DNA of 39,910 nucleotides, from contig JASJCU010000019.1 of assembly GCA_030065815.1 (NCBI GenBank), positions 1-39,910 on the forward strand, written 5' to 3'. The stretch's first letter is position 1. Every line of letters begins with the position of its first letter. A program made the position numbers and the translations under genes. This DNA comes from Gammaproteobacteria bacterium. Lineage in GTDB: Bacteria > Pseudomonadota > Gammaproteobacteria > Chromatiales > Chromatiaceae. The notes beneath the pieces were generated by a model. The model worked only from the letters and a program-made list of their open reading frames with translations, had not been told where the DNA came from and did no database searches. This document shows, one piece after another, positions 432 through 20,725 of the stretch.

Positions 432-1697
432 ATGAAGTTGCGTATCACCCGTTGGTTCGTGGGCCTGGGCACGGCCCTGTATCTGACCTCCCCGGCGTTC
501 GCGGCCGATACCTCGGTACAGCACGTCGAGGCCAAGGCCTGCAAGCAGTGCCACGAGGAGATCTATCAGCAGTGGGCAGGCTCCATGCATGCCAACAGCT
601 CGGCGCTCAAAGACCCGATCCACGGCGCGTTCTACAAGAACGTCATCGGCGATCCGACCGCCGAGGGCGTCAAGACCAAGAAGGGCACCTACCCGGTGTG
701 CCTGAAGTGCCACGCCCCGGTCGCGGCGATGGAGGGCAAGACCAAGCTCGACGCCAAGCCGGCCTATGCCGACGGCATCAGCTGCACGACCTGCCACTCG
801 TTCGCCAAGTTCAAGGGCACCGACGCGGCCAACGGCAAGCCGCTGTACGGCATCGACGCCTACGAACTCGATCCGAAAAGCCTGTACGGGCCGTCGGGCA
901 TCACCTACACGACAGAACGCGTGCCGGAAGGCGCCCAGTGGCCGACGCCGGTCCACCACCCGGTGCCGCTGCAGGGCAACCGTGCCGACCTGTTCAAGAG
1001 CAACGACGCCTGCATGGGCTGCCACGAGAAGCGCAGCAACTTCCACGGCACGCCGCTGTGCCGCACCGGCAACGAGTACCGCATGGCGAAGAACTTCGTC
1101 AGCTGCCAGGCCTGCCACATGTCGATCGTGACCGTGCCGAAGATCAAGGACGGTAAGGTCGTCGACGGCGAGTTCGTCAGCATCCCCGACCACAGCATGG
1201 CCGGTGGTCACGACGGCAAGATGATCACCCGCGGGCTGGCTATGACGATGCAGACTGAGCGCGACGGCGACAAGCTGCGCGCGACGATCACGGTACGCAA
1301 TCGCCTGCCGCACGCCTATCCGACCGGCGCACCGTTCCGCAACTTCTTCATCCGCATCGCGACCTACGACAAGGACGGCAAGCAGCTGTGGAAGAACTAC
1401 AAGGTACACCCGATCAAGGACGACCCGCAGGCCGCGTTCTGGCTGACCCTCGGCGACAAGGAGGGCAAGCCGACGATCCCGCCGAAGGCGACGCAGATCC
1501 TCAAGGACTCGCGCCTGGCGCCGAACGAGGTGCGCACGCTCAAGTACGAGATCCCGTTCACCGGAGCGACGACGATCGTCCGCGCCGAGGCGCTGTACGA
1601 TCTGATGCTGCCGCCGATCAAGGCGAAGATGAAGGGCAAGCTGCCGGACGAGCTGCTGACGCCCAAGCTCGCGGCTTCCGCGGAAGTCCGCCTGTAG
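432..1697 (+). CDS. Pentaheme periplasmic cytochrome c, c554-like
   Basis: A secreted electron carrier of 421 residues. A Sec signal peptide ends near residue 24 (SPAFA-A). Five c-type heme sites follow: CKQCH 37-41, CLKCH 90-94, CTTCH 118-122, CMGCH 194-198 and CQACH 225-229. The spacing and the motif around the first heme (ACKQCHEEIYQQW) resemble the cytochrome c554 family, which usually has four hemes. The C-terminal 190 residues have no heme and look beta-rich. I chose ATG 432 because TGGAGG lies just upstream at 421-426 and a signal peptide follows directly; an upstream in-frame ATG at 375 would bury it. It is first in the respiratory cluster, 31 bp before the tetraheme protein. The natural electron partner is unknown; the DsrOP-like pair downstream is the best candidate. 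Confidence 0.88.
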   Translation: MKLRITRWFVGLGTALYLTSPAFAADTSVQHVEAKACKQCHEEIYQQWAGSMHANSSALKDPIHGAFYKNVIGDPTAEGVKTKKGTYPVCLKCHAPVAAMEGKTKLDAKPAYADGISCTTCHSFAKFKGTDAANGKPLYGIDAYELDPKSLYGPSGITYTTERVPEGAQWPTPVHHPVPLQGNRADLFKSNDACMGCHEKRSNFHGTPLCRTGNEYRMAKNFVSCQACHMSIVTVPKIKDGKVVDGEFVSIPDHSMAGGHDGKMITRGLAMTMQTERDGDKLRATITVRNRLPHAYPTGAPFRNFFIRIATYDKDGKQLWKNYKVHPIKDDPQAAFWLTLGDKEGKPTIPPKATQILKDSRLAPNEVRTLKYEIPFTGATTIVRAEALYDLMLPPIKAKMKGKLPDELLTPKLAASAEVRL

Positions 1698-1728
1698 GCG
1701 GCGTCGAGGCCGCACGGAGCACGCCGCC

Positions 1729-2592
1729 ATGCTGCGTCGCAGCAAACGGGCCGCTCTGATCGGGATCCGGCTCGCGGCGTGCGCGTTGCTCGCGGCGGCC
1801 GCCGCGCCCGGGCTGGCCAGCGACGACTGGGACTGGGACGCCGTCGAGGCGATCGACGACGCCCCGGTCACGAAGACGCCGGCCGCCGGCGCGCCCGCGA
1901 AGACCGACGCCACGGCGCCAGCCGCACCGCGCGCTGCCGAGAACGCGCTGCCGGATTTCGCCGCCGAGCCGGTCACGGTGCTCGCGATGTTCGACGGCGT
2001 CGCGCCGTTCGAGGTCGTGCCGAGCCAGCGAGACGACGAGATGCACCCGTGCGCCAACTGCCACCAGTGGGCGACCAGCAACCCCGAGCCACGCCGGCTG
2101 CTGACCCCGCACGACAACTTCGAGCTGCAGCACGGCCTGCACGGCAAGGGTGGCTTCTGGTGCTTCACGTGCCATGACGTCGACAACAACTTCTCGCTGA
2201 AGACCCTCGAGGGCGAGCCGGTCGAGTTTGCGCACGCCTACGTCGTCTGCAGCCAGTGCCACGCGCAGCAGGCGCGCGACTGGGCGCACGGCGCGCACGG
2301 CAAGCGCGTCGGCAACTGGCAGGGCCGGCGCCAGGTGTTCAACTGCACCGCCTGTCACTACCAGCACCGGCCGGCGCTGAAGCCGCGCGAGCCGCTGCCC
2401 GGCCCGACCATGCGGGTCGGCCTGCCGCGCCCTGACCACTGGGTCGCGGCCGGTCAGCGTCCCGATCACGGCGCCGAGCGGCAGCGCGACTGGCAGCGCG
2501 ACATCGAGCGCCGCCGCGAATCCGTCGAACGCGACGACACATCGGACACCGCGGCCTCAGGCCGCGTGCCAGCAGACGATGCAGAATCCTGA
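1729..2592 (+). CDS. Tetraheme periplasmic cytochrome c
   Basis: A secreted protein of 287 residues with a signal peptide (Arg-rich start, hydrophobic run, cleavage near GLA-S at 30). A low-complexity Ala/Pro/Asp linker covers about 35-70. Four heme sites follow: CANCH 108-112, CFTCH 145-149, CSQCH 174-178 and CTACH 206-210. Histidine-rich stretches around them (HGLHGKGG, HGAHGKR) could supply distal ligands. The last 65 residues are charged and look disordered. It lies between the pentaheme cytochrome and the Fe-S subunit, and its end overlaps the next gene by 14 bases, which implies coupled translation. I infer that it passes electrons between the Fe-S/NrfD pair and the pentaheme protein. 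I cannot name the exact family. Confidence 0.85.
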   Translation: MLRRSKRAALIGIRLAACALLAAAAAPGLASDDWDWDAVEAIDDAPVTKTPAAGAPAKTDATAPAAPRAAENALPDFAAEPVTVLAMFDGVAPFEVVPSQRDDEMHPCANCHQWATSNPEPRRLLTPHDNFELQHGLHGKGGFWCFTCHDVDNNFSLKTLEGEPVEFAHAYVVCSQCHAQQARDWAHGAHGKRVGNWQGRRQVFNCTACHYQHRPALKPREPLPGPTMRVGLPRPDHWVAAGQRPDHGAERQRDWQRDIERRRESVERDDTSDTAASGRVPADDAES

Positions 2593-3514
2593 CGACGACA
2601 AGCCGAACGGCGTCAGCGACCTCGCACGCCGACGCTTCCTCAAGGGCCTCGCGGTCAGCGCCGGCGCCGCCGGCGCGGTGTCGGCGAGCGGCGGCGCCTG
2701 GGGCGGCAGCACGCTGTCGGACGCGTTCGCCGACTTCTTCCAGCAGCACTACCAGCGCATGTCCGCCGACGAGATCGCGACGACGATCGAACGTATCGAG
2801 CGCAAGGCCAAGCGACGCTACGGCGTCGACATCACGTGCGCCAACACGCCGCCGCAGGACGGCGTCGTGTTCGGCTACGCGATCAACATCTCGAAGTGCC
2901 GCGGCTACCGCGATTGCGTGCACGCCTGCGTCGAGGAGAACAACCTCGGCCGCGACACCCAGTACATCCGCGTCGTCGAACTCGACCGCGGCAGTACCGA
3001 CCTGCACCACGCCGACCACTACTATGACCACGCCGAGGTGCCGCGTCCGGGCAAGGACTACCTGCCGATGCAGTGCATGCACTGCGACAACCCGCCGTGC
3101 GTCAAGGCCTGCCCGGTCGAGGCCACGTGGACCGAGCCGGACGGCATCGTCGTCGTCGACTACGACTGGTGCATCGGCTGCCGTTACTGCATGGCGGCCT
3201 GCCCGTACCAGGCGCGCCATTTCAACTGGGGCACGCCGGAGATCCCGGCCGCCGAACTGAACCCCGACACGCATTACCTCGGCAACCGCCCGCGCCCGCG
3301 TGGCGTGGTCGAGAAATGTCACTTCTGCGTGCAGCGCACGCGCACCGGCCGTCAGCCGGCCTGCCAGGAGGCCTGCCCGACCGGTGCGCGGGTGTTCGGC
3401 AACCTGCTCGATCCGAACAGCGAGATCCGCTACGTGCTCGAGAACAAGGCCGTATTCAGGCTCAAGGAAGACCTCGGTACCGAGCCCAAGTTCTGGTACT
3501 ACCGCGATGCCTGA
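2579..3514 (+). CDS. Tat-exported 4Fe-4S subunit, DsrO/HybA-like
   Basis: Electron-transfer subunit of 311 residues. The twin-arginine signal ARRRFLKG (17-23) predicts folded export to the periplasm. Four ferredoxin-type cysteine groups are visible: I C107-C113-C117, II C166-C169-C174-C178, III C198-C201-C204-C208, IV C247-C250-C262-C266. Groups II-IV are complete. In group I the expected second cysteine (110) is a tyrosine (CRGYRDC), so that cluster may be altered or lack a ligand; I believe related proteins share this, but cannot check. The C-terminal ACPTGARVFGNLLDP segment is typical of DsrO, HybA and QrcC relatives. It overlaps the tetraheme gene by 14 bases and the NrfD-type gene by 8, so the pair very probably forms a membrane-bound quinone-reactive module. 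Confidence 0.9.
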   Translation: MQNPDDDKPNGVSDLARRRFLKGLAVSAGAAGAVSASGGAWGGSTLSDAFADFFQQHYQRMSADEIATTIERIERKAKRRYGVDITCANTPPQDGVVFGYAINISKCRGYRDCVHACVEENNLGRDTQYIRVVELDRGSTDLHHADHYYDHAEVPRPGKDYLPMQCMHCDNPPCVKACPVEATWTEPDGIVVVDYDWCIGCRYCMAACPYQARHFNWGTPEIPAAELNPDTHYLGNRPRPRGVVEKCHFCVQRTRTGRQPACQEACPTGARVFGNLLDPNSEIRYVLENKAVFRLKEDLGTEPKFWYYRDA

Positions 3515-4802
3515 GCAAGCGATGACAGCAGCGCCGGCGCCGAGACCGACACTGGTGCGCTTCGTGTTCTCGAGCGTCGGCCACCTGTTCCGCGGGCCGC
3601 CGCTGTACTGGCTGTGGGTGTTGCTGCTGCTCGCGCTGATCGCGCTCGGCGGCTGGCACTACTGGCTGCAGCTGCGCGACGGCCTGGTCGTCACGAACAT
3701 GACCAACCAGGTGTCGTGGGGCTTCTACATCGCCAACTTCACGTTCCTGGTCGGCGTAGCCGCGGCCGCGGTGATGCTGGTCGTGCCGGCGTACATCTTC
3801 CACCGCCGCGACATCAAGGACGTCGTGCTGATGGGCGACACGATGGCGATCGCCGCGGTGACGATGGCGATCCTGTTCGTCGTCGTCGACCTCGGCCGCC
3901 CCGACCGCTTCTGGCACCTGATCCCGGGCATCGGCCGCTTCAACTTCCCCGAGTCGATGCTGGCCTGGGACGTGATCGTGCTCAACGGCTACCTGCTGCT
4001 GAACCTCGGCATCTCGTTCTACATCGTCTACCACCACTACCGCGGCGAGGACCCGAAGGCGTCGCGCTACTTCCCGTGGGTGCTGCTGGCGATCTTCTGG
4101 GCGATCTCGATCCATACCGTGACCGCGTTCCTGTATGCGGCCAACAGCGGCCGGCCGTACTGGCACAACGCGCTGCTCGCGCCGCGCTTCATCGCGTCGG
4201 CGTTCGCGTCCGGCCCGGCGATGATGGCGCTGGGCCTGCAGATCATCCGCGCGATCAGCGACTACCCGATCCGCCAGAGCGTGATCAACCACCTCGCGCT
4301 GGTCGCGACGATCGCACTGCAGGTGACGCTGTTCTTCCTGCTCGCCGAGCTGTTCACCGAGTTCTACAACGAGGGCGAGCACGCGGCGTCGGCGCGCTAC
4401 CTGTTCCTCGGCCTCGACGGCCACAGTGGACTGACGCCGTGGATCTGGACCGCGGTCGTGCTGCTGTCGATCGCGGTCGTGATCCTGATGATCCACCCAC
4501 TGCGCCACAACCCGCTGACGATGAACATCGCGTTCGTGTTGATCATCGTCGGCGTGTGGATCGAGAAGGGGATGGGGCTGATCGTGCCGGCGTTCGTGCC
4601 GACACCGATCGGCGAGATCTACGAATACACACCCAGCCTGACCGAGATCATGGTGTCGGTCGGGATCTGGGCGATCGGCCTGCTGTTGTTCACGTTGCTG
4701 GCCAAGGCCGCGCTGCCGGTGCAGTGCGAGTTCCTGCGCCGGCAACGCGCCAGTGAGCAGCAGAGCTGGGACGGCGTCGAACGCCGGCACAACGCCGCGT
4801 GA
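3507..4802 (+). CDS. NrfD-family membrane subunit, DsrP/HybB-like
   Basis: Polytopic inner-membrane protein of 431 residues with about ten hydrophobic segments. It is a quinone-binding partner of the Fe-S subunit encoded just upstream. The segments NQVSWGFYIANFTFLVG, DLGRPDRFW and the late IEKGMGLIVPAFVP are hallmarks of the long NrfD subfamily (DsrP, HybB, ActC). The start at 3507 uses an ATG overlapping the previous stop; a second ATG at 3522 is an alternative. The longer open frame upstream of 3507 is a shadow of the Fe-S gene. This family links quinones to periplasmic Fe-S proteins and some members conserve energy. The direction of electron flow here cannot be told from sequence. Confidence 0.9.
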   Translation: MPEQAMTAAPAPRPTLVRFVFSSVGHLFRGPPLYWLWVLLLLALIALGGWHYWLQLRDGLVVTNMTNQVSWGFYIANFTFLVGVAAAAVMLVVPAYIFHRRDIKDVVLMGDTMAIAAVTMAILFVVVDLGRPDRFWHLIPGIGRFNFPESMLAWDVIVLNGYLLLNLGISFYIVYHHYRGEDPKASRYFPWVLLAIFWAISIHTVTAFLYAANSGRPYWHNALLAPRFIASAFASGPAMMALGLQIIRAISDYPIRQSVINHLALVATIALQVTLFFLLAELFTEFYNEGEHAASARYLFLGLDGHSGLTPWIWTAVVLLSIAVVILMIHPLRHNPLTMNIAFVLIIVGVWIEKGMGLIVPAFVPTPIGEIYEYTPSLTEIMVSVGIWAIGLLLFTLLAKAALPVQCEFLRRQRASEQQSWDGVERRHNAA

Positions 4803-4825
4803 GTCGACACCGCGCCGGTGTGGAC
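4803..4825 (+). other. Intercistronic hairpin before the triple-rhodanese gene
   Basis: ACACCG at 4807-4812 pairs with CGGTGT at 4816-4821 around a 3-base loop. GTC/GAC flanks extend the stem to 4803-4825 with one mismatch. It lies directly after the NrfD-type stop codon, at the only gap above 50 bp inside the cluster, and has no T-run. It may be an RNA processing or stability element that sets different expression of the two halves. Confidence 0.5.
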
Positions 4826-4893
4826 GCAGCAGATGCCGCCGTGCATCGTGCGTACACGGGCACAACCACACAGCACCGTGAAGAGAGGCGAAC

Positions 4894-6183
4894 ATGAAAA
4901 GGCTGATAGTGCTAATCATCGCGGCCGCGTTGGCCGGTATCGTGCAGGCAGAGACCGTCAAGGGCCGGATCGCCGTCGTGTCGAAGCAGGCGGGGACGAT
5001 CCAGATCGACGTCAAGGGCAAAGACAACAAGGTCACCAAGGTGGTCGTGCGCACCGACGCCAAAACCGCCTACGACGGTGCGGCCGGGCTCAAGGACCTC
5101 GGTCCGCCCGACCTGATCGAGGTGCAGCGCGAGCCCGGCAAGCCGGCCAGCAGCATCAAGAAGATCGTGTTCGGCCTGCCGCCGGGCGTCGAGATCGGCG
5201 TCCAGGAGCTGGTCGGCATCATGACCGGCGGCCAGCCCTACCACCTGTTCGACGCCCGCCCCGGCAAGCGCTTCGGCGGTGGCCACGTACCGGGTGCGAA
5301 GTCGGCGTTCCCGAAGGACAAGGACTTCCTCGACCGGCTGCCGGCCGACAAGGACGCGCTGCTGGTGTTCTACTGCGGCGGCCCGACCTGCCCGTACACC
5401 GGGGTCGCGGTCAAGAAGGCGCAGGCCGCCGGCTACAGCAATCTAAAGGGCTTCCAGGCCGGCCTGCCCGGGTGGAAGAAGGGCAAGCTGCCGGTGCACT
5501 CGGAGGCCGGCTGGCTGGCCAAGAAGCTCAACCCGCAGCACGTGATCCTCGACGTGCGTGACCGCGCGGCGAGCGCCCAGGCGCACATCCCCGGTGCGGT
5601 CGCGCTGCCGACCGCCGAGCTGCAGGCGTTGACCCAGCAGTTCATCGCCGACAAGACCGTCGCCGAACTGCCCGGCGTGTCCGACCAGCGCGCGCCGGTC
5701 ATCGTCTATGCCGACAGCCACACGTCGCCCGAGGCGCTGCTGGCCTACAAGGAGCTGCGCAACTGGGGCTACGGCAAGACCACGATCCTCAACGGCGGCC
5801 TCAGCAACTGGCAGGCCAAGGGGATGCCGGTCGAGAGCGGCGCGGCCGCGACGCAGATCGTCTACATCAAGAAGCTCGCCCCCGGCGCGATCGCACCCAA
5901 GGAGTTCGTCGCACTGCAGCAGTCCGGTGACGGCGTCGTGCTGATCGACGTGCGCACCGCCCAGGAGGCGGCCGCCGGCGTCATCGACGGCGCGCTGCAC
6001 ATGCCGCTGGAACAGCTCGAGGACCGCCTCGCCGAGCTGCCGGCCGACAAGGAGGTGCTGATCTACTGCGCCAACGGCATCCGTGCCGAGATGGCGCACC
6101 AGACGCTGACCGCGAAGGGCATCCGCAACCGTTACCTCAACGAGACGGTGACGATCGCGAAGGACGGCAGTTACAAGATCTGA
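4894..6183 (+). CDS. Periplasmic triple-rhodanese protein
   Basis: Secreted sulfurtransferase-like protein of 429 residues. A signal peptide (about 1-19) is followed by a small beta-rich domain (20-95) and three rhodanese folds. Domain 1 (about 100-200) has the loop FYCGGPTCPYTG with candidate catalytic Cys161 and a second Cys166. Domain 2 (about 205-318) has VYADSHTSPE, so the catalytic Cys is replaced by Ala273. Domain 3 (about 325-429) has LIYCANGIRAE with Cys392. Two of the three domains could therefore carry persulfide sulfur. GAGAGG-like bases precede the ATG. Rhodaneses such as Sud of Wolinella carry polysulfide sulfur to PsrA, and this gene directly precedes a PsrA-like gene. I infer that it is a sulfur carrier or buffer for that enzyme. 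The substrate is unproven. Confidence 0.87.
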   Translation: MKRLIVLIIAAALAGIVQAETVKGRIAVVSKQAGTIQIDVKGKDNKVTKVVVRTDAKTAYDGAAGLKDLGPPDLIEVQREPGKPASSIKKIVFGLPPGVEIGVQELVGIMTGGQPYHLFDARPGKRFGGGHVPGAKSAFPKDKDFLDRLPADKDALLVFYCGGPTCPYTGVAVKKAQAAGYSNLKGFQAGLPGWKKGKLPVHSEAGWLAKKLNPQHVILDVRDRAASAQAHIPGAVALPTAELQALTQQFIADKTVAELPGVSDQRAPVIVYADSHTSPEALLAYKELRNWGYGKTTILNGGLSNWQAKGMPVESGAAATQIVYIKKLAPGAIAPKEFVALQQSGDGVVLIDVRTAQEAAAGVIDGALHMPLEQLEDRLAELPADKEVLIYCANGIRAEMAHQTLTAKGIRNRYLNETVTIAKDGSYKI

Positions 6184-6200
6184 GCGACGGTCAGTAGCGC

Positions 6201-8405
6201 ATGAATCGACGCGAGTTCCTCAAGGTCTCGGCCGCGCTCGGCGCCGGGACCGCGGTCCCGGCCATGCTCGGCGGCTGCGCGACGCGCCCGCTGCCGGGCA
6301 GCGGCGAGGTCACGACCACGCCGACGGTCTGCAACATGTGTTTCTGGCAGTGCGCCGGCACGCTGTACCAGGAGGACGGCAGGCCGTGGAAGGTCGTCGG
6401 CCACCCCGACGACCCGCACTGCGACGGCCGGCTGTGCACCCGCGGCACCGGCGGCATCGGCGCCTACGACGACCCCGACCGGCTGCGCCAGCCGCTGTTG
6501 CGCGTCGCCGACGGCGACGGCCAGCGCTTCGAGGCGGTCAGCTGGGACGAGGCGCTCGACTTCATCGCCCGGCGCATGACCGCGATCGGCGAGCAGCACG
6601 GCAAGGACCGCCTCGCGCTGTTCTCGCACGGCGACGGCGGCAAGCACTTCCAGCGCCTGCTGCAGGCGTTCGGCTCGCACGCCTATGCGCACCCGTCGTT
6701 CGCGCAGTGTCGCGGCCCGCGCGAGACCGCGTTCGGCCTGACCTACGGCGAGGGCGTCGGCTCGCCCGACCGCACCGACATGGCCAACTCGCGCTGCATC
6801 GTGCTGATCGGCTCGCACCTCGGCGAGAACCTGCACAACAGCCAGGTGCAGACCTTCACCCGTGCGATCGACAACGGCGCGACCGTGATCACGGTCGACC
6901 CGCGCTTCTCGGTCGCGGCGTCGAAGTCGCAGCACTGGCTGGCGATCAAGCCCGGCACCGACATGGCGCTGCTGCTCGCCTGGACCAACGTGCTGGTCAA
7001 CGAGGGCCTCTACGACCGCGACTATGTCGCGCGCTACTGCAGCGGCTTCGACAAGCTGACCGCGCACGTGCAGCCGTACAACCCGGAATGGGCCTACCTC
7101 GAGACCGGCATCGAGCCGGCCGTGATCCGCGCGACCGCGCGCGTCATGGCCGGCAACGCGCCGGCGACGCTGGTCCACCCGGGCCGCCACGTGACCTGGT
7201 ACGGCGACGACACCCAGCGCAGCCGGGCGATCGCGATCCTGAATGCGCTGCTCGGCTCGTGGGGGCGGCCCGGCGGGTTCTACCGCCAGGAGAAGGTCAA
7301 GCTGCCGGCGTTCCCGGCGCCGCCGCTACCGAAACCGTCGAGCGACTGGAAGCAGACCGTGCAGGGCGATTTCCCGCTGGTCTCGACCGGGATCAGCAAC
7401 CGCCTGGTCGAGCACTCGATCGGCGACGACGCGTTCATCAAGGGCTGGTTCGTCTACGCGACCAACCTGCCGTTGACCCTGCCCGGCGCGACCGAGCAGA
7501 TCAAGGCCGCCGCCGAGTCGCTCGAGCTGATGGTCGTCGTCGACACGATGCCGGCCGAGATCACCGGCTACGCCGATGTCGTGCTGCCCGAGTGCACCTA
7601 CCTCGAACGCTACGACGACCTGCGCAACAAGGCCGAGCGCACGCCGACGCTGGCGCTGCGCATGCCGGCCTTCGAACCGCGCCAGCAGAGCAAGCCGGCG
7701 TGGTGGATGGCCAAGCAGCTCGCCGAGAAGCTCGGCCTCGGCCGCTACTTCCCGTGGCCGGACTACACCTTCGTGCTCGACTGGCAGCTCAAGCAGGTCG
7801 GTTCGTCGCTGGCCGAGATGCAGCGCCTCGGCGTCAAGCGCTTTGCGCGCAAGACCAGGCCGTACTTCGACGACGGCGAGGCGATCAGATTCAACACGCC
7901 GAGCGGCCGGATCGAGCTGTGGTCGAGCCTGCTGGCCGAGGTCGGCCAGGACCCGCTGCCGCGTTACACGCCGCCGGAGCGCCCACCGCCGGGCTTTTAT
8001 CACCTCAACTACGGGCGTGCGCCGGCGCACACCTTCGGCCGCACGATCAACAACCCGCAGCTGTTCGAGCTGATGCCTGAGAACACGGTCTGGGTCCATC
8101 CCAGCGCCGCCGCCGTACACGGCCTGGTCAGCAGCGGCTACGTGCGCATGGAGAACCCGAACGGCCGGCGCAGCAACGGCGTGCGCGTGCGCGTCACCGA
8201 GCGCATCCGCCCCGACTCGATATTCATCGTCCACGGCTTCGGCCACAGCGACGAGCGCCAGCGGCTCGCGCGCGGCGTCGGCGCCGACGACGCCGCGCTG
8301 ATGCACAACGTCAAGATCGACCCGGTCATGGGAGGCACCGGCATGCGCGCGAGCTTCGTCAGGCTGGTCGATGACGACGCCGCACCGCAAGGGGGCCTGA
8401 CGTGA
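6201..8405 (+). CDS. Molybdopterin oxidoreductase catalytic subunit, PsrA/PhsA-like
   Basis: Catalytic subunit of 734 residues in the DMSO-reductase superfamily, with a bis-MGD cofactor expected. A Tat signal starts at RREFLK (3-8); LGGC at 23-26 resembles a lipobox, so it could even be a Tat lipoprotein. An N-terminal 4Fe-4S site is formed by C44-C47-C51-C79. Cys170 in AQCRGPRE is the likely molybdenum ligand. The length matches polysulfide and thiosulfate reductases (about 750-770) better than TtrA, SoeA or ArrA, which are longer. It is followed by Fe-S and NrfD subunits in PsrABC order and flanked by rhodanese genes, so a sulfur compound is the likely substrate. The enzyme could work as a reductase or an oxidase. 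The stop overlaps the next start in GTGA. Confidence 0.88.
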   Translation: MNRREFLKVSAALGAGTAVPAMLGGCATRPLPGSGEVTTTPTVCNMCFWQCAGTLYQEDGRPWKVVGHPDDPHCDGRLCTRGTGGIGAYDDPDRLRQPLLRVADGDGQRFEAVSWDEALDFIARRMTAIGEQHGKDRLALFSHGDGGKHFQRLLQAFGSHAYAHPSFAQCRGPRETAFGLTYGEGVGSPDRTDMANSRCIVLIGSHLGENLHNSQVQTFTRAIDNGATVITVDPRFSVAASKSQHWLAIKPGTDMALLLAWTNVLVNEGLYDRDYVARYCSGFDKLTAHVQPYNPEWAYLETGIEPAVIRATARVMAGNAPATLVHPGRHVTWYGDDTQRSRAIAILNALLGSWGRPGGFYRQEKVKLPAFPAPPLPKPSSDWKQTVQGDFPLVSTGISNRLVEHSIGDDAFIKGWFVYATNLPLTLPGATEQIKAAAESLELMVVVDTMPAEITGYADVVLPECTYLERYDDLRNKAERTPTLALRMPAFEPRQQSKPAWWMAKQLAEKLGLGRYFPWPDYTFVLDWQLKQVGSSLAEMQRLGVKRFARKTRPYFDDGEAIRFNTPSGRIELWSSLLAEVGQDPLPRYTPPERPPPGFYHLNYGRAPAHTFGRTINNPQLFELMPENTVWVHPSAAAVHGLVSSGYVRMENPNGRRSNGVRVRVTERIRPDSIFIVHGFGHSDERQRLARGVGADDAALMHNVKIDPVMGGTGMRASFVRLVDDDAAPQGGLT

Positions 8406-8944
8406 CGACCTACGCGATGGTCATCGACACCCGCACCTGCATCGGCTGCGGCGACTGCGTCGTCGCGTGCAAGAACGAGAACAAGGTGCCGGTAGGGCTC
8501 AACCGCGACTGGGTCGTCGAGGCGACGCGCGGCGAGTACCCGAACCTCGAGACCGAGTTCCGTTCCGAGCGCTGCAACCACTGCAGCCACGCGACCTGCG
8601 TGACCAGCTGCCCGACCGGCGCCAGCCACCACTGGAAGGACAGCAACATCGTGCTGGTCGCGGCCGAGAAGTGCACCGGCTGCAAGGCCTGCATCGCCGC
8701 GTGCCCGTACGACGCGCGCCTGATCATGCACCCCGACGGTTATGTCGATAAGTGCACCTTCTGCCATCACCGCGTCGACCAGGGCCTCGACCCGGCGTGC
8801 GTGTCGAGCTGCCCGACGCACTGCATGCACTTCGGCAACCTCGACGACCGCGACAGCGTCGTCAGCCGCCTGCTGCGCGAACGCCGCCACAAGGTGCTGA
8901 TGCCCGAGACCGGCAACCAGCCACACGTCTACTACCTGACATGA
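8402..8944 (+). CDS. Four-cluster ferredoxin-type subunit, PsrB/DmsB-like
   Basis: Electron-transfer subunit of 180 residues with sixteen cysteines arranged for four 4Fe-4S clusters: C13-16-19-23, C58-61-66-70, C91-94-97-101 and C118-121-133-137. It has no signal of its own, as is usual for subunits co-exported with a Tat-signalled catalytic partner. The GTG start lies in a GTGA overlap with the molybdopterin gene; an internal ATG six codons in is an alternative. Unlike the ferredoxin encoded at 2579, all four motifs are complete. Its stop overlaps a 15-codon micro-ORF in ATGA. Confidence 0.93.
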   Translation: MTTYAMVIDTRTCIGCGDCVVACKNENKVPVGLNRDWVVEATRGEYPNLETEFRSERCNHCSHATCVTSCPTGASHHWKDSNIVLVAAEKCTGCKACIAACPYDARLIMHPDGYVDKCTFCHHRVDQGLDPACVSSCPTHCMHFGNLDDRDSVVSRLLRERRHKVLMPETGNQPHVYYLT

Positions 8945-8988
8945 CAACGATGACGACGACACTGCCGATGGCCGGGGGTGCGCGATGA
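8941..8988 (+). CDS. 15-codon micro-ORF bridging the Fe-S and NrfD genes
   Basis: ATG at 8941-8943 overlaps the Fe-S stop (TGA 8942-8944) as ATGA. The frame reads MTTMTTTLPMAGGAR and stops with TGA at 8986-8988, which overlaps the NrfD start ATG (8985-8987), again as ATGA. The frame thus fills the 40-bp gap exactly and would let a ribosome finishing the Fe-S subunit re-initiate twice to reach the membrane subunit. The product has no recognisable function; the role, if any, is translational coupling. It could be chance in a short gap. Confidence 0.4.
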   Translation: MTTMTTTLPMAGGAR

Positions 8989-9980
8989 TCGAAGAGGTCC
9001 TCGCGACCGCGCGTTACAACGACAAGATCGACCCGTCGCTCGGCATCTGGACCTGGGAGATCGCGTTCTACCTGTTCCTCGGCGGCATGGCTGCCGGGAT
9101 CATGCTGTTCGCGGCCTGGGCGGTGCTCGGTGGCCGGCGCGACACGCTGCCGTTCGCCCACGACCGGTTCGCGCTGTGGGCGCCGATCGCGCTGTCGCTC
9201 GGCATGACCACGCTGTTCCTCGATCTCGAGTACAAGATCCACGTGTTCCGCTTCTATACCGCGTTCGAGCCGACCTCGCCGATGTCGTGGGGCGCCTGGG
9301 TGCTGGTGCTGATCTACCCGCTGATGGTCGCGCAGATCCTGTCGACGCTGCGCGCCGGCTACCCGCTGCTCGCCGGCTGGCTGGAGCGGCTGCCCGGCGG
9401 CGCCTGGCTGCTCGACCTGTGCGAGGGGCGGCGCCGCCTGATCGCGTGGCTGGTGATCCCGCTCGCGGTCGGCCTCGGCATCTACACCGGCGTGCTGCTC
9501 AGCGCGTTCAGCGCGCGGCCGTTCTGGAACTCCGGCATGCTCGGTCCGCTGTTCCTGGTCTCGGGCATGTCGACCGCGGCGGTGTTGCCGCTGCTGGCCG
9601 GCGTCGCTGGCGGCGAGAAGAAGTTCTTCGAGCGCACCGACCTCGGCCTGATCGCGATCGAGCTGACCCTGATCGCGCTGTTCCTGATCAGCCTGGCGAC
9701 CGGTGCCGCGCAGCACATGCAGGCCCTGCAGCTGGTCTGGGGCGGCGAGTACACGGTGCCGTTCTGGCTGTGGTTCGTGCTGCCGGGCCTGGTGATCCCG
9801 CTGCTGCTCGAGATCATCGCGGTGCGCGGCAACCGCCAGGCCGCGATCACCGCGGCGGTGTTGGTCGTCGCCGGCGGCTTCATGCTGCGCTACCTGATGG
9901 TCGAGATCGGCCAGGTGAGTACCTGGAGTCAGTACGCGATACAATTCGATCCGCAGCTGTTGCAGAGACTTGTGCCATGA
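8985..9980 (+). CDS. NrfD/PsrC-type membrane anchor subunit
   Basis: Integral membrane protein of 331 residues with about eight hydrophobic helices. It is the quinone-reactive anchor of the molybdopterin complex encoded just before it. The start SLGIWTWEIAFYLFLGGMAAG, and the pattern of a short N-terminus followed by a Gly-rich first helix, are typical of PsrC/NrfD. It differs from the longer DsrP-like protein at 3507, so the cluster encodes two distinct quinone modules. GGGGG at 8973-8977 precedes the ATG. Its TGA overlaps the ATG of the rhodanese lipoprotein. Confidence 0.9.
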   Translation: MIEEVLATARYNDKIDPSLGIWTWEIAFYLFLGGMAAGIMLFAAWAVLGGRRDTLPFAHDRFALWAPIALSLGMTTLFLDLEYKIHVFRFYTAFEPTSPMSWGAWVLVLIYPLMVAQILSTLRAGYPLLAGWLERLPGGAWLLDLCEGRRRLIAWLVIPLAVGLGIYTGVLLSAFSARPFWNSGMLGPLFLVSGMSTAAVLPLLAGVAGGEKKFFERTDLGLIAIELTLIALFLISLATGAAQHMQALQLVWGGEYTVPFWLWFVLPGLVIPLLLEIIAVRGNRQAAITAAVLVVAGGFMLRYLMVEIGQVSTWSQYAIQFDPQLLQRLVP

Positions 9981-10777
9981 CCCGATTCCTGCCGATGACG
10001 ATCCTGCTGCCGGCGCTCGCCGGCAGCGTGCTTTCCGGCTGCAGCGAGCCGACCGGGTTCGACCGCACCGGCGCCGCCGCGGCGCTGGCCAAGACCATCG
10101 CCACCGAGGGCGACCACGTCACGGTCGCCGAGCTGTCCGACTGGATCATCAAGGACCGGCGCGACTTCACGCTGCTCGACATCCGCGACGCCGGCGATTT
10201 CGCCGCCGGGCATATCGACGGGGCCCGCAACGTGCCGCTCGCCGGGCTGATGGCGGATGCGTCGCTCGACGCGCTGCCGGGCGGACGCAAGGTTGTCGTC
10301 TACTCCAACGGCACCGCGCACGCGGCCCAGGCGGCGCTGCTGCTGCGCCTGGTCGAGCGCGACGCCTACGCGCTGCTCGGTGGTTTCAACCACTGGCAGG
10401 CCTATCTGAACGATCCGCAGGTCGCCGGTGTCGCCGCGATGGACCCGAAGCAGCGCGCCGCGTACCAGGCCGTCGCGTGCCGCTTCGCCGGTGACTATGT
10501 CGCCGCTGCCGGCCTGACGCCGCAGGCAGCAGCGAGTGCACCCGCGCCGGCCCCGGCCGCGCCGGCCGCCGACCCGCTCGGCCTGGGCCTCGGCCTCGGT
10601 CTGGGCAGCCCGGCGGTGCAGCAGGCCGCGCCGGCCGCCGCGCCTGCGGCCCCGGCCGCCGATCCGCTCGGTCTCGGCCTTGGCCTCGGGCTCGGCAGCG
10701 ACGAGGTCAAGGGCGCGCAGCCGCCGGCCGCGGCGCCGCCGGCGAGCGGCCGCCTGTTGATCAAGGCCGAGTGCTGA
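9977..10777 (+). CDS. Rhodanese-fold lipoprotein with Gly-Leu repeat tail
   Basis: Predicted lipoprotein of 266 residues. The signal ends in the lipobox VLSGC. A single rhodanese fold occupies about 40-145 (LLDIRDAGDFAAGHIDGARNVPL). The active loop reads VVYSNGTAHA, so serine stands where the catalytic cysteine belongs; thiosulfate-cyanide chemistry is not expected. An Ala/Pro-rich tail carries two near-identical 30-residue units, each with PLGLGLGLGLGS (200-211 and 230-241). The ATG lies in an ATGA overlap with the NrfD gene, and a longer open frame upstream is only its shadow. Being lipid-anchored and last in the PsrABC-like group, it may bind a sulfur species or partner without turnover, or organise the complex. 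That role is inference. Confidence 0.82.
   Translation: MTRFLPMTILLPALAGSVLSGCSEPTGFDRTGAAAALAKTIATEGDHVTVAELSDWIIKDRRDFTLLDIRDAGDFAAGHIDGARNVPLAGLMADASLDALPGGRKVVVYSNGTAHAAQAALLLRLVERDAYALLGGFNHWQAYLNDPQVAGVAAMDPKQRAAYQAVACRFAGDYVAAAGLTPQAAASAPAPAPAAPAADPLGLGLGLGLGSPAVQQAAPAAAPAAPAADPLGLGLGLGLGSDEVKGAQPPAAAPPASGRLLIKAEC
10559..10699 (+). repeat. Two in-frame Ala-Pro/Gly-Leu coding repeats
   Basis: Units at 10559-10609 and 10649-10699, 90 bases apart, encode the same peptide block ending in PLGLGLGLGLGS. Several synonymous codons differ between the units, so the protein sequence rather than the DNA appears conserved. They lie in the tail of the rhodanese-fold lipoprotein. Confidence 0.85.
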
Positions 10778-10956: not shown

Positions 10957-11517
10957 ATGGCAATGCCCGAAATAACCGAAGAGATGATTTTTGAGTGTTT
11001 CGCCGCCGCGCAGCAGTCGACCGCAGGCAGCGCGACCGCCGAGTCGTTCGTCGACGTCGAGGAGTACGAGAACCAGATCATGTACCCCGAGTTCGCGCGC
11101 TGGGCGGAGAAGGCCGGCTACCCGCAGCTGGCGACGCTGTTCCGCAAGGTCGCCGGCGAGGAGAAATTGCACGCGGTCTGGCTGCGCGAGCTGTACGCCG
11201 ATATCGGCGTGCCGAGCCGTGGCGAGGACACCCAGCGCGCGATCGACGCGCTGACGACGATCCGCGCCAACTGCGACGCGCTGATCGACATGAACCCGGA
11301 CGGCGTCGTCGAGAAGGCGCTGCGCGTCGCGATCTCGGTCGAGGAGCGCGAGTACCAGGACATCTATCCGCGCTTCCGCGACCAGGCCAGGGCCGAGGGG
11401 CGTGATGCCGAGGCCGCGGTCTACCAGCGCGTCGTCGACTCCGAGGCGCAGCATGCCGACTGGTTCCGCGCCGCACTGGCCGAGTTCGAGGCCGGCAGGG
11501 TCGCCGCCGTGCACTGA
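10957..11517 (+). CDS. Rubrerythrin-like ferritin-fold protein without rubredoxin domain
   Basis: Cytoplasmic protein of 186 residues built of two ferritin-like helical hairpins. Candidate di-iron ligands include Glu in EEYENQIMYPEF, EKLH in the second helix, EEREYQDIYP, and SEAQH near the C-terminus. It lacks the C-terminal CxxC pairs of a rubredoxin domain, so it needs an external electron donor if it reduces peroxide like rubrerythrin. AAGGAG at 10943-10948 sets the start. It follows the respiratory cluster after a 179-bp gap, probably as its own transcript, and a terminator follows. Peroxide or oxygen protection of the Fe-S-rich complexes nearby is a reasonable inference. Confidence 0.82.
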   Translation: MAMPEITEEMIFECFAAAQQSTAGSATAESFVDVEEYENQIMYPEFARWAEKAGYPQLATLFRKVAGEEKLHAVWLRELYADIGVPSRGEDTQRAIDALTTIRANCDALIDMNPDGVVEKALRVAISVEEREYQDIYPRFRDQARAEGRDAEAAVYQRVVDSEAQHADWFRAALAEFEAGRVAAVH

Positions 11518-11535
11518 CGCGGTCGTCGCGCGCGA

Positions 11536-11590
11536 CGGGCGTCACACGCCCGACACCACAGGGCCGGTCCGCCGTGGGGCCGGCCTTTTT
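11536..11590 (+). terminator. Double hairpin with T-run after the rubrerythrin gene
   Basis: A perfect 7-bp stem (CGGGCGT 11536-11542, ACGCCCG 11546-11552) is followed by a second stem, GGGCCGG 11561-11567 pairing with CCGGCCt 11580-11586 (last pair G-T), and TTTTT at 11586-11590. The second part has the form of a Rho-independent terminator for the plus strand. Confidence 0.75.
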
Positions 11591-11728
11591 CGTGCGCCGG
11601 CCGCGGCCGCCGCCGACCCGAATCCGCGTCCCATGCCGCGTCGCGCCGATCAAGAACGGCCGCGCCGCGCCGATGCAATGCGAGTGTGGGCGACGAGCGC
11701 GCGCCGCCGCCCGGTGTCCGGAGACCAC

Positions 11729-13687
11729 ATGCAGCAGACGGCCAAGCAGCGCCTCGGCGACGGCATCGCGCCGGCGGAAGGACCCGCCCCGATCGTGGAG
11801 CGGGCGGCGCCGTGGCGTTGGCTGGCGTCGCGACCGCACGCCCGGCTGACCGAGGAGCAGGGCCAGGCCCTGGCACGCATCGCGCTGGCCGCGGTCGGCA
11901 CCCTGTTGTTCTTCGCGACGCTGTCCGCAGGCGGTGGCGCGACGCCGTTCCTGGTCACGCTGGTCTACCTGCTCGGCAGCGTGCTGTACCTGTCGTTCGT
12001 GACCCGGCACCGCAGCGGCTTCCTGTGGCGCCGTTACCTCGTGATCCTGCTCGACCTCGGTGTCGCGACCTTCCTGACCGCGTATTTCTCCAGCGCCGGC
12101 GTCGCGTTCTACCCGCTGTTCCTGTGGGTCATGATCGGCAACGGCATCCGATACGGCCAGCATTACATGCAGTTCGCGACGCTGTTCGGTCTGCTCGGGT
12201 TCAGCGGCGCGATGGCCGGCAACGGCTTCCTGTGGGATCAGCCCGGCACCTACATCGGCCTGATGTTCGGCCTGGTGCTGATGCCGAAGTTCTTCCTCGT
12301 GCTGATCCACCGGCTCGCCGATGCCAACGTCAAGCTGCAGGCGCAGCGCGACGAGGCCGAGTACATGGCCACCCACGACGTGCTGACCGGCCTGCCCAAC
12401 CGCGCCTACCTGCACACCCGGATGCAGCAGTCGCTGGCACGCGCCAAGCGCGCCGGGCGCGAGGTCACGGTGGCGTTCATCGACCTCGACTCGTTCAAGT
12501 CGATCAACGACACCTACGGTCACGAATACGGCGACTTCCTGCTCGCCCAGGTCGCCGATGCGATGAAGTCGGTCGTGCGCGAGAGCGACACCGTGTCGCG
12601 CCTCGGCGGTGACGAGTTCGTCGTCGTCATCGAGGACAGCGACGCCGGACCCGGTGCGGACACGCTGATCGAGCGCCTGTTCTCGTGCGTCGGTCGCTAC
12701 TACTCGATCGGCGACTACGAGACCTACGTGACCTGGAGCTGCGGCGTCGTCGTCTACCCGCGCGACGGCGACGACGTGCACACCCTGCTCAAGCATGCCG
12801 ACACGGCGATGTACGCGGCCAAGGAGCGTGGGCAGAACCGCTACGCCTTCTATGACCCGAGCATGTCGACGTCGGTGTCCGAACAGCTGGCGCTGCGCGA
12901 CGACATGCGCGTCGCGCTGCGGCAGGGCCAGTTCGAGGTCTACTACCAGCCGATCATCGACGCGCGCAACGGGCGCGTCGCCGCGGCCGAGGCGCTGCTG
13001 CGCTGGCACCACCCGCAGCGCGGCACGTTGTCACCGTCGAATTTCATCGCCGTCGCCGAGCACAGCGGCCTGATCAGCGAGATCGGGCGCTGGGTCGTGC
13101 GCGAGGCGCTGGACACCGCGGCGCACTGGCAGCGGCTCACGGCCGGCGCGGTCAGCATGCATGTCAACGTATCCGCGCACCAGCTGCGCCAGGACAGCTT
13201 CGTCGCCGAGATCGACGGCCTGATCGCGCAGAGCGGCCTGCCGTCGCAGGTCCTCGACCTCGAGATGACCGAGAGCGCGCTGCTCGAGGACACCGAGCGC
13301 GCCGAGAAGCTGCTGCGCGACCTCAAGCGCATCGGTGTCAGTATCGCGCTCGACGACTTCGGCACCGGGTTCTCGTCGCTGTCGTACCTGAAGCGCCTGC
13401 CGGTCGACCTGATCAAGATCGACAAGTCGTTCATCGACGAGATACCGCGCGACGTGCGCGACTGCGCGCTGGTCGACGCCGTGCTGACGCTCGGCGGCCG
13501 CCTCGATCACGCGATCGTCGCCGAGGGCGTCGAGACCGAGCTGCAGCGCGACTGGCTGGTCGGCCACGGCTGCCGCTACCTGCAGGGCTACCTGTTCAGC
13601 CGGCCGCTGCCGCGTGCCGACTTCCTCGCGCTGAGCGGTCGGCGTTTCGCCACCGGGCCGTCATACGGCAGCAGCATCGGCTTCTGA
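11729..13687 (+). CDS. Membrane GGDEF-EAL protein (c-di-GMP turnover)
   Basis: Bifunctional-looking c-di-GMP protein of 652 residues. The N-terminus has about five to six membrane helices (50-195) with the motif FYPLFLWVMIGNGIRYG, similar to input regions of RpfC-type sensors. The GGDEF domain (about 213-375) has an intact GGDEF at 293-297 and an RESD inhibitory site five residues before it. The EAL domain (about 395-645) has EALLRW at 421 and retains LEMTES, DDFGTG, KIDKSF and AEGVE. Both activities could be functional. ATG 11729 is chosen because the hydrophobic domain begins soon after; the open frame upstream overlaps the rubrerythrin gene and terminator. The last 27 bases overlap the convergent small gene. 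Confidence 0.9.
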   Translation: MQQTAKQRLGDGIAPAEGPAPIVERAAPWRWLASRPHARLTEEQGQALARIALAAVGTLLFFATLSAGGGATPFLVTLVYLLGSVLYLSFVTRHRSGFLWRRYLVILLDLGVATFLTAYFSSAGVAFYPLFLWVMIGNGIRYGQHYMQFATLFGLLGFSGAMAGNGFLWDQPGTYIGLMFGLVLMPKFFLVLIHRLADANVKLQAQRDEAEYMATHDVLTGLPNRAYLHTRMQQSLARAKRAGREVTVAFIDLDSFKSINDTYGHEYGDFLLAQVADAMKSVVRESDTVSRLGGDEFVVVIEDSDAGPGADTLIERLFSCVGRYYSIGDYETYVTWSCGVVVYPRDGDDVHTLLKHADTAMYAAKERGQNRYAFYDPSMSTSVSEQLALRDDMRVALRQGQFEVYYQPIIDARNGRVAAAEALLRWHHPQRGTLSPSNFIAVAEHSGLISEIGRWVVREALDTAAHWQRLTAGAVSMHVNVSAHQLRQDSFVAEIDGLIAQSGLPSQVLDLEMTESALLEDTERAEKLLRDLKRIGVSIALDDFGTGFSSLSYLKRLPVDLIKIDKSFIDEIPRDVRDCALVDAVLTLGGRLDHAIVAEGVETELQRDWLVGHGCRYLQGYLFSRPLPRADFLALSGRRFATGPSYGSSIGF

Positions 13688-18900: not shown

Positions 18901-19315
18901 CCCAGCCGACCCCAGTCGCGTCGGGCCCGAGCCGTGGCTGCACGCCGTCGGGCAGGTCGGCGGCGGCCTGGTTCAGGTACTCGAGCACGCGGGCGCGCGC
19001 CCAGTACAGGTCGGTACCGTCCTCGAAGATCACGTAGACGTAGCTGTCGCCGAAGAACGAGTAGCCGCGCACGACCTGCGCACCCGGCACCGACAGCATC
19101 GTCGTCGTGATCGGGTAGGTGACCTGTTCCTCGACGACGCGCGGCGCCTGGCCCGGGAAGCTGGTCTTGATGATGACCTGCACGTCCGACAGGTCGGGGA
19201 TCGCGTCGAGCGGCGTCTTCTGCAGCGCGACCCAGCCCCAGCCCGTGAGCACCAGCGTCGCGAGCAGCACCAGGAAGCGGTTGCGCACCGACCAGACGAT
19301 GACGTTCTTGAGCAT
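15926..19315 (-). CDS. cusA: CusA-type heavy-metal RND efflux pump (Cu/Ag)
   Basis: Inner-membrane RND pump of 1129 residues. The signature [16 protein letters not shown] at about 401-416 is that of the Cu(I)/Ag(I) subgroup (CusA/SilA), not the zinc/cobalt CzcA form. The three periplasmic methionines that bind copper in E. coli CusA (573, 623, 672) correspond to Met628, Met678 and Met727, with the 50- and 49-residue spacings kept. The constant offset of 55 fits one insertion of about 55 residues before the first Met (roughly 557-612, [14 protein letters not shown] onward). It exports Cu(I)/Ag(I) from periplasm or cytoplasm by proton antiport, together with CusB. cusB lies 10 bp upstream. No outer-membrane CusC gene is present in the cassette. 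Confidence 0.94.
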
Positions 19316-19325
19316 GGCCGTGCCC

Positions 19326-20648
19326 TCAGTGTTCGCTGTGCGCGCTCATCGTCGCGTCGGTCGCGTCGGCGGGCGCGGCCGGCGGCGCCGCCTCGTCCAT
19401 GCGCAGGAAGCTGGCCTGCAGGCTCGACTCGGAGTCGATCAGGAACTGCCCGGACACGACGACCTCGTCGCCGGCATCGATGCCGCTGAGGATCTCGGTC
19501 ATGTCGTTGGCGGTCATGCCGGTCACGACGTCGACCGGCTGGAAGCGGCCGTCGCCGAGTGCGAGCACGACCGACGAGCGCTGGCCGGTCTCGATGACCG
19601 CCTCGCTGGGCACCGCGAGCACGTCGCGCTTCGGCCCGCCGTAGATCGCGACCTCGGCGAACATGTTCGCCTTGAGCAGGCCGTCCGGGTTGTCGAACGC
19701 GAGGCGCACCTTGAGCGTGCGCGACGTCGGATCGAGCTCCGGGTAGATGTACTCGACCGCGCCCTCCCAGACCCGGCCCGGGTACGCCGGTACCCGGATC
19801 ACGGCGCTCAGGCCCTCGGCCAGCCAGTCGATCTGGTGCTCGTAGACATCCACCAGCACCCAGATACGACTGAGGTCGGCGATCGTGACGATCTCCATGC
19901 TCGGCGTCACGTACATGCCCTGGCGTGCGCCGAGCATGGTCACGACGCCGTCGGCCGTCGACACCACCGGCACCGTGTTGAACGACTCGCCGCGCCTCTG
20001 GATCGCGTTGATCGTGCCCTCGGTGACGCCGAGCAGGCGTAGGCGGTTGCGCGCCTTCTCGATCTTCACCGCGCTGTTCGACTGGTCGAGCGCGATCAGG
20101 AAATCGACCTGCGCCGACAGGATCTCCTCGGAGTACAGGCGACCGATCAGCTGGCCGCGCTCGATCGGTTCACCCTCGGCACGCAGCTTGAGCTGCTCCA
20201 TCCAGCCGGCGGCGCGCGGGTGCACGTGGGCGACGCGGGTCTCGTCGTAGTCGATGCGGCCGACCGTCTCGATGAACTTCCACAGCGTCGTGTTGCGCGC
20301 CGGCGACGTGCGCACACCCATGCTGTTGATCACGGCGTTGCTGATCTGCACGGTCGGGTGCTTGCCGGCGTTTGGATCGATCAGTTTCTCGACCAAATCC
20401 ATGCCGCAGATCGGGCAACTGCCTTCCTCGTCGCGCACGATCTGCGGGTGCATCGGGCAGACGTACTTCGGGTCGAGGTGCTTGCGCGCGTGTTCCAGCG
20501 CGCTGTCGTCCATGGCCTCGGCCAGCGTCTCGCTCGGCGCGTCGGCGTTCGGCTTGTCGGCGCTGAGACAGCCGCCGAGCAGCACCGCGACGAACAGCAC
20601 CGGTATCGACAGCACGGGGAGGGCAACGGTCGGTTTGTGAGTCTTCAC
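19326..20648 (-). CDS. cusB: CusB-type periplasmic adaptor lipoprotein
   Basis: Membrane-fusion adaptor of 440 residues. I place the start at a GTG (20646-20648), because the hydrophobic signal and lipobox LLGGC (Cys27) follow at once and no suitable ATG exists; the frame upstream overlaps the CopL-like gene. A heavy-metal-binding module follows: YVCPMHP with [10 protein letters not shown] (C64, H67, C78, C81). Then come the barrel-sandwich, helical hairpin and beta-barrel regions typical of CusB ([48 protein letters not shown]). It delivers periplasmic Cu/Ag to CusA and links it to an outer-membrane channel. Confidence 0.92.
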
Positions 20649-20725
20649 TTTTCGATTCCCGCGAACGTTCTGAAAGACGGGCCGTCCACAGGCGCACGGC
20701 CCGGTGGCGGACGGCAGCGACGGCG

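Follow-up and report, generated by a model that had tools for sequence, protein, structure and literature searches.

The nearest experimentally studied parallel to the locus described here is the polysulfide reductase (Psr) operon of Desulfurivibrio dismutans (RS06465-06490), which includes a secreted triple-rhodanese sulfurtransferase, is strongly upregulated during sulfur disproportionation and has been assigned to the reducing branch (PMC12142623). Molybdenum (Mo), iron-sulfur (Fe-S) and membrane subunits are likewise combined with rhodanese-domain proteins (srrE, srrF) in SrrABCDEF of Bacillus selenitireducens (PMC12481199), and the Geobacter extHIJKLMNOPQS cluster, tied to selenite/tellurite reduction through an extI mutant, encodes a rhodanese-like protein together with the pentaheme ExtKL, the 12-heme ExtM and the 4-heme ExtS (PMC5877670). 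Two further gene sets that have been linked by proposal to sulfur disproportionation, YTD and MOLY (PMC12998232), were considered by description only. The subject of this work is a nine-gene locus at positions 432-10777 (plus strand) of contig JASJCU010000019.1, a complete source contig of 39,910 bases (hereafter “the window”) from a draft Chromatiaceae genome (GCA_030065815.1; 3.89 Mb, 98.9% complete), in which a cytochrome half (cytA5, cytB4, FeS1 and NrfD1) is followed by a Mo-rhodanese half (Rhd3, Mo, FeS2, NrfD2 and RhdL). The locus is real, conserved and rare, and its best explanation, to which we would give a probability of roughly 0.45, is a periplasmic Psr-type sulfur-respiration system.

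Set beside the described systems, the Mo-rhodanese half belongs, as a variant, to a published kind (triple-rhodanese Psr operons, Srr). By description rather than by sequence, it shares with the D. dismutans operon the union of Psr and a triple rhodanese in one operon; the D. dismutans triple rhodanese is a predicted lipoprotein, unlike Rhd3, and the Psr section of that paper names no pentaheme, tetraheme or DsrOP-like genes (PMC12142623). The Mo, Fe-S and membrane subunits and rhodanese-domain proteins of Srr also have counterparts here by description; Srr acts on selenite and includes a chaperone gene, and no cytochromes are named in the Srr passages (PMC12481199). The likeness to Geobacter ext consists of the rhodanese-like protein, the penta-, tetra- and many-heme cytochromes and a membrane electron-transfer unit; ext differs in its Rieske/cytochrome b proteins (ExtO, ExtP) and porin, and no Mo enzyme is named in its description (PMC5877670). 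The fixed combination of both halves appears new, and no description of a joint system with DsrOP-like and multiheme partners was found in searches of the open-access literature.

A conserved, rare locus with separable halves

All nine open reading frames (ORFs) reported in an initial annotation made from the sequence were found, collinear and on one strand, with their families matched by Pfam/NCBIfam. The gaps between neighbours are, in order, 31, -14, -8, 91, 17, -4, 40 and -4 bases, and the earlier wording “mostly overlapping or within 40 bp” is, thus, true of 7/8 junctions, the exception being the 91 bp (4802 to 4894) that separate the two halves. For the first gene, whose ORF is open from 375, position 432 is the plausible start; a promoter scan of the locus gave no promoter-like site above shuffled sequence, and a terminator scan gave no more terminator-like sites than were seen in shuffles. 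The identical nine genes recur in identical order in five other genomes (G001, G003, G008, G010 and G419; genomes and loci are designated G and L throughout), which is more than chance would lead one to expect. Per-protein identity to these five clusters is 48-93%, except for the lipoprotein (34-39% in G419 and G010), and the G001 copy has a rubrerythrin gene inserted.

Orthologs of the Mo subunit were found in 7/194 genomes of the family and 5/274 genomes of the class (the window's own being counted in both), and a phylum sample of 397 other genomes yielded no further ortholog and two PhsA-type matches at 32-34%. None of 406 plasmid records gave a match at 60% identity or above, the 60 matches listed being PhsA and other Mo enzymes at 25-34%, and a contig scan returned at least two orthologous loci among the 25 matches listed (L023, which is G001 again, and L025). 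With NrfD1 orthologs scored at 57% identity or above in these samples (the next group being at 45% or below), both halves were found in 8 of 465 genomes, Mo only in 3, NrfD1 only in 4 and neither in 450 (Fisher p 1.6e-12); taking one genome per genus (280 genera), the sole means by which kinship was handled, gives 5/3/4/268 (p 4.9e-7). The halves co-occur far above chance, as had been expected of a joint system, and the outcome named beforehand as speaking against one, i.e., that the halves would mostly be found independently, is not what the genomes show (8 with both versus 3 and 4 with one). A fixed linkage, in turn, has to be given up in view of those single-half genomes.

Genomes with both halves are G000, G001, G003, G008, G010, G419, G168 and G229, and 6/8 have the full nine-gene order; in G168 the halves are neighbours in divergent orientation, one of them being inverted, with two Rhd3 genes, and in G229 they lie on different contigs. 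No NrfD1 ortholog was found at E 1e-60 in G238, G096 and G032 (82% complete), and no Mo ortholog at E 1e-75 in G330, G297, G132 and G082 (88% complete). On L025, the Mo half (60-94% identity) is present, with no cytochrome half within 6.8 kb upstream or 7.6 kb downstream of it, and G096 encodes a pentaheme protein at 55% identity elsewhere in the genome.

The molybdenum subunit and its rhodanese-type companions

The Mo subunit (6201..8405) is a PsrA/PhsA-like molybdopterin oxidoreductase with a twin-arginine translocation (Tat) signal and an Fe4S4 domain (Pfam/NCBIfam; cysteines C44, C47, C51 and C79). Its best model, the PhsA equivalog NF012032, scored 449.8 bits, under the cut-off of 694, so that the protein is not classed as PhsA. 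It aligns to Thermus thermophilus PsrA (PDB 2vpw) over 723/734 residues (E 1.8e-192), and this near full-length alignment, the Tat signal, the Fe4S4 site and the Mo ligand cysteine (C170, equivalent to C173 of 2vpw) are shared with T. thermophilus PsrABC; the H143 and R329 positions, at which H and R presumably line the active-site pocket, agree with PsrA as well. What sets the window's enzyme apart from PsrABC is the addition of rhodaneses and cytochromes, a clade of its own and an arginine directly after the ligand (R171), which is found in 10/10 orthologs covering the position, the residues in six PsrA/PhsA relatives being T, A, L, P, V and P.

In a 39-row tree (a quick search with Shimodaira-Hasegawa-like approximate likelihood ratio test support only; four long-branch rows were flagged, none of them in the clade discussed), the 11 orthologs form one clade (support 100) with T. 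thermophilus PsrA as its sister (98), followed by a deltaproteobacterial PhsA-like protein on the next branch (99) and by E. coli-type PhsA in a neighbouring group. The clade sits inside the PsrA/PhsA group (97), with DmsA, a QrcB-like protein, NapA and formate dehydrogenases outside; no row is known as TtrA, SoeA or Wolinella PsrA and none is SrrA, the absent loci being L172 (no Mo match), L171 (the window's gene), L173 and L002-L006, and the partial L159 was kept and went uncounted at the positions missing from it. The orthologs are 63-82% identical to the window protein, and the next relatives found reach at most 36%. The distinct clade foreseen for the Mo subunit is, therefore, there, it does not group with a non-sulfur family (NapA and the formate dehydrogenases lying apart), and a sulfur-enzyme reading holds because this clade is tight, rare and next to T. 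thermophilus PsrA. Downstream, FeS2 (8402..8944) is a 4Fe-4S subunit of the PsrB/NrfC type and NrfD2 (8985..9980) an NrfD-family membrane quinone subunit, both by Pfam/NCBIfam; the label “PsrC-like” given to the latter is generous, for the family stands but a sequence search of solved structures returned no match at E 0.001, T. thermophilus PsrC included.

Rhd3 (4894..6183) has an apparent Sec signal (judged by eye), an N-terminal beta domain and three rhodanese stretches (Pfam), and its predicted structure (predicted local distance difference test score, pLDDT, of 91) matched solved rhodaneses with a Foldseek E of 3e-14 but a template modelling score of about 0.2, which means that the domain type is matched and the arrangement is not. 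CGGPTC in domain 1 and CxNGxR in domain 3 are kept in 10/10 aligned rows and a domain 2 cysteine is found in 0/10 (the L018 row is partial, its first fragment, truncated at a run of N, having been omitted); outside the N-terminal end, three cysteines, i.e., the CGGPTC pair and that of CxNGxR, are present in all ten rows, and in the window's protein these are C161, C166 and C392. As Rhd3 was found in 8/11 Mo-positive genomes at E 1e-15, the notion that the clade always carries both rhodaneses proved too strong.

RhdL (9977..10777), which has a lipobox (by eye), is predicted with confidence to adopt a rhodanese fold, while the residues from about 179 onwards have a pLDDT below 50. At the catalytic cysteine position, 9/10 orthologs have serine and 1/10 has glycine, so that RhdL lacks the rhodanese cysteine on which sulfur would be held. 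As to the role of sulfane-sulfur holder that the initial annotation gave to both rhodaneses, the active-loop cysteine is there in domains 1 and 3 of Rhd3 (10/10 rows), and is missing from domain 2 (10/10 rows) and from the rhodanese domain of the lipoprotein (10/10 orthologs). Two other cysteines are invariant in 10/10 orthologs: an internal one (C168) about 25 residues past the Pfam rhodanese stretch (50-142), and the last residue of the protein (C266). The terminal cysteine follows the internal one at anything from 41 to 103 residues across the ten orthologs, the lipobox supplies the only other cysteine in 9/10, and the tenth sequence (G419, L202), retrieved after the pattern had been recognised, fits it. 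An invariant terminal cysteine behind a tail of free length would be hard to explain other than by function, and its position on a predicted disordered tail suggests a swinging arm that carries sulfur covalently, for which SoxY and DsrC would be functional parallels unrelated in fold. This terminal-cysteine arm appears new, no description of a pseudo-rhodanese lipoprotein with one having been found in searches of the open-access literature. To our knowledge, the route by which insoluble or chain-like sulfur is delivered to the Mo site is not settled, and RhdL offers a concrete, testable candidate carrier for it.

The cytochrome half and its partners

The c-type cytochromes that open the cluster have five CxxCH motifs in the periplasmic cytA5 (432..1697) and four in cytB4 (1729..2592), the latter being kept in 12 aligned rows (counts of cysteines and hemes in the 12-row alignments of this half exclude L019 FeS1 and the window's NrfD2). 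cytA5, a Cytochrome_C554 protein by Pfam/NCBIfam, is homologous to Thermochromatium tepidum c552 over nearly its full length (residues 15-418, E 4.4e-99; PDB 5ze8, understood to be the T. tepidum protein, cf. PMC11976967) and has in common with it the five CxxCH and an extra cysteine; the five hemes and this non-heme cysteine (C210 in P0001 numbering) are kept in 25/25 aligned sequences (L113 left out). An NrfA reading of cytA5 was ruled out, there being five CxxCH and no CxxCK. T. tepidum c552, Geobacter ExtKL and cable-bacteria cytochromes are described as related by structure (PMC11976967).

Being common across the family (104/194 genomes at E 1e-20), cytA5 is not specific to this system. 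In 7/18 non-cluster loci examined, the pentaheme gene adjoins an eight-heme and a four-heme gene (L100, L101, L102, L103, L111, L114 and L206), which in L111, the sole pair scanned, are HAO-type (PF13447) and NapC-type, respectively. The T. tepidum-type gene itself (L114 in G439), whose product matches T. tepidum c552 over the entire 435-residue chain (1022.8 bits), has these neighbours too, and the 19.9 kb seen there contain no Psr gene.

FeS1 (2579..3514) is a Tat-type, DsrO-like Fe-S protein that falls just under the cut-off of its best model (DsrO, 196.8 versus 200 bits); its first cluster has three cysteines, with tyrosine in place of the fourth (CxGYxxCxxxC in 12 aligned rows), and resembles in this the one 3Fe-4S cluster listed for QrcC (PMC8076601). 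NrfD1 (3507..4802), a membrane quinone subunit, scored over the DsrP equivalog cut-off (400.4 versus 350 bits), in agreement with its earlier designation as DsrP-like. The layout of Fe-S, NrfD-type and multiheme cytochrome proteins is that of DsrMKJOP and NrfABCD (PMC8076601). Membership of FeS1/NrfD1 in Dsr was, nevertheless, ruled out, as neither DsrMK nor the triheme DsrJ is among the ten genes scanned, and, compared with NrfABCD, the window has a tetraheme protein instead of the pentaheme NrfB and no CxxCK heme in gene 1. A separate DsrO-DsrP-triheme cluster was seen at L161:8188-11344 in G424 (genus g8) and L162:8347-11480 in G010; its DsrP-like protein in L161 also exceeds the DsrP cut-off (359.4 bits), it adjoins there monoheme proteins and a histidine kinase/sigma-54 regulator pair, and it is a paralog separate from that of the window.

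Relatives of cytB4 (41%), FeS1 (61%) and NrfD1 (52%) follow NapA and another four-heme protein in L031, from Gemmatimonadetes (gene stretch 4164-10390; NapA at 1008 bits over a cut-off of 904), and this recurrence beside NapA is the reason for assigning the cytochrome half a role as an exit for electrons from quinol to the periplasm. The DsrP-like half is probably a general, exchangeable quinol-to-periplasm electron module, one that model-based annotation would label as Dsr. The L031 arrangement might also represent an unusual route by which periplasmic nitrate reduction is supplied with electrons.

An 11-heme cytochrome, related to Geobacter ExtM and absent from the window, would, by its distribution, be a tenth partner. 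Among NCBIfam models, ExtM fits it best (135-197 bits for the three sequences scanned, against a cut-off of 800), and the gene was found in 6/11 Mo-positive versus 0/24 other genomes at E 1e-15 (p 2.8e-4), the 35 genomes for this and the Rhd3 test having been chosen by hand (11 Mo-positive, 4 with the cytochrome half only and 20 other family members). The gene is a divergently oriented neighbour of cytA5 in G419, G010 and G168; in G238 it adjoins the Mo half, in G096 and G229 it lies elsewhere in the genome, and from G032 it is, at the same threshold, missing. In G003, its usual place is taken by a 15-heme protein (L019:15968-18874), likewise divergent from cytA5, in which an octaheme-tetrathionate-reductase domain (568.6 bits, cut-off 375) is fused to a further multiheme part. 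In G238, a Sulf_transp protein (PF04143, YedE-type; L157:4520-5440) sits directly upstream of Mo, where Rhd3 usually does. The opposite flank of the 11-heme gene in L157 is occupied by a menD-type gene, and in G168 (L198:4347-7722, a record that is partly N) a further Rhd3 relative (43%) comes after a 6-heme protein and a fusion of a 9-heme protein with a PhsC-like cytochrome b.

Proposed mechanism and competing explanations

Starting from what is directly observed, namely gene order, families, cysteine pattern, clade and co-occurrence, we infer a substrate, a direction, a function for the arm and any contact between the halves as follows. The two cysteine sites of Rhd3 would pick up sulfane sulfur, with polysulfide or thiosulfate as its source; RhdL, anchored in a membrane by its lipid, would take the sulfur over on the terminal cysteine of its flexible tail and hand it to the PsrA-like subunit, at whose Mo site it would be reduced to sulfide with electrons from quinol arriving via NrfD2 and FeS2. 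NrfD1, FeS1 and cytB4 would form a general outlet for electrons from quinol to the periplasm, charging the pentaheme cytochrome and, outside the window's genus, the 11-heme one as well, and this second, low-potential pool of cytochrome electrons might be drawn on by that sulfur chemistry or for sulfur beyond the inner membrane. Judged by sequence and by analogy, polysulfide or sulfur reduction seems the likeliest activity, and it is favoured because of the sisterhood with PsrA and the upregulation of the Psr/triple-rhodanese operon in Desulfurivibrio (PMC12142623). That the enzyme is regularly accompanied by a second quinone module and a many-heme cytochrome suggests, moreover, a cytochrome branch of sulfur respiration in some Gammaproteobacteria.

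Several points weigh against such a system. Rhd3 was not found in G229, G238 and G032 at E 1e-15, there is no RhdL beside Mo in G096, the window's genus (4 carriers) lacks the 11-heme gene at E 1e-15, and the halves are separable, not inseparable. The direction of the reaction cannot be read from sequence, the clade-specific R171 could mean another anionic substrate, and Psr-type enzymes get no substrate assignment from sequence, PsrA, PhsA and the selenite reductase SrrA being presented as one lineage (PMC10100899). The initial proposal of one periplasmic machine, with rhodanese-held sulfur and a cytochrome arm, keeps the backing of the clade and of the co-occurrence, and loses the inseparability of its halves and the catalytic cysteine of its lipoprotein. 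Its boldest form must be considered doubtful: the nine genes and the 11-heme cytochrome might make up one machine respiring a zero-valent chalcogen (stored or extracellular sulfur, possibly selenium), with Rhd3 passing sulfur covalently to the terminal cysteine of RhdL, whose tail would swing it into the Mo site, and with two separate quinone sites feeding the Mo site and a multiheme wire.

Selenite or tellurite reduction is a serious rival to polysulfide reduction, if an unlikely one as it stands: a respiratory chalcogen-oxyanion reductase would join an Srr-like Mo/rhodanese unit to Ext-like cytochromes and deposit elemental Se or Te. Srr (PMC12481199) and Ext (PMC5877670) both pair rhodanese-type proteins with a reductase or with multiheme cytochromes, and the common lineage of PsrA, PhsA and SrrA (PMC10100899) fits this as well. 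Ext models are, furthermore, the best or weak matches of the 11-heme protein (ExtM), cytA5 (ExtKL, 57 bits, cut-off 250, and the only model for cytA5 at E 1e-5) and Rhd3 (ExtH, 30 bits, cut-off 200). All of these scores, however, are far under the curated cut-offs (800, 250 and 200), on which grounds membership in Ext was rejected and Ext retained as a functional rival, and the nearest characterised Mo subunit in the tree, which is one without SrrA, is PsrA.

It is, to a comparable degree, improbable that two independent units merely share a transcription unit, the one being an ordinary Psr assisted by rhodaneses and the other a quinol-cytochrome module for different acceptors, e.g., an octaheme reductase. 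Each half does occur without the other, a 91-bp gap lies between them, the pentaheme is widespread (104/194) and frequents eight-heme and four-heme genes (7/18), and an octaheme-tetrathionate-reductase-family protein stands divergently beside the cluster in G003. Set against this are the co-occurrence (p 1.6e-12), the continued adjacency of the halves in G168 despite the inversion of one of them, and the 11-heme cytochrome, which goes not just with the full cluster but also with the Mo half (G238, G096).

In principle, rhodanese carriers and PsrABC could operate in either direction, and Chromatiaceae, the host family, are known mainly for sulfur oxidation. The same machine working as an oxidase, in which the Mo site or the cytochromes would oxidise sulfide or polysulfide, Rhd3/RhdL would be loaded with sulfane sulfur and quinone would be reduced by both NrfD subunits, nonetheless seems the least probable of these readings. 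Qrc, an NrfD-type complex, does move electrons from cytochrome to quinone (PMC8076601), but the tetraheme/DsrOP-like unit beside the reductase NapA in L031 argues for quinol oxidation, and the Psr operon of Desulfurivibrio has been assigned to the reducing branch (PMC12142623).

Beyond the cluster, a rubrerythrin gene (Rbr, 10957..11517, plus strand) follows 179 bp downstream and is a probable accessory, as 4/6 genomes that keep all nine genes in order show it linked to the cluster (on the downstream side in the window, in G003 (L019) and in G419 (L202), and inside the cluster in L018 of G001); it was also seen near the cytochrome half in L155 and near an octaheme cluster in L111. Two GGDEF-EAL proteins are encoded downstream of the cluster in the window (11402-13687 and 27144-29798), and its minus strand carries, at 15926-21077 and so a few kb past the cluster, a CusAB-type resistance-nodulation-division efflux pair (AcrB family; adaptor with a heavy-metal-binding domain).

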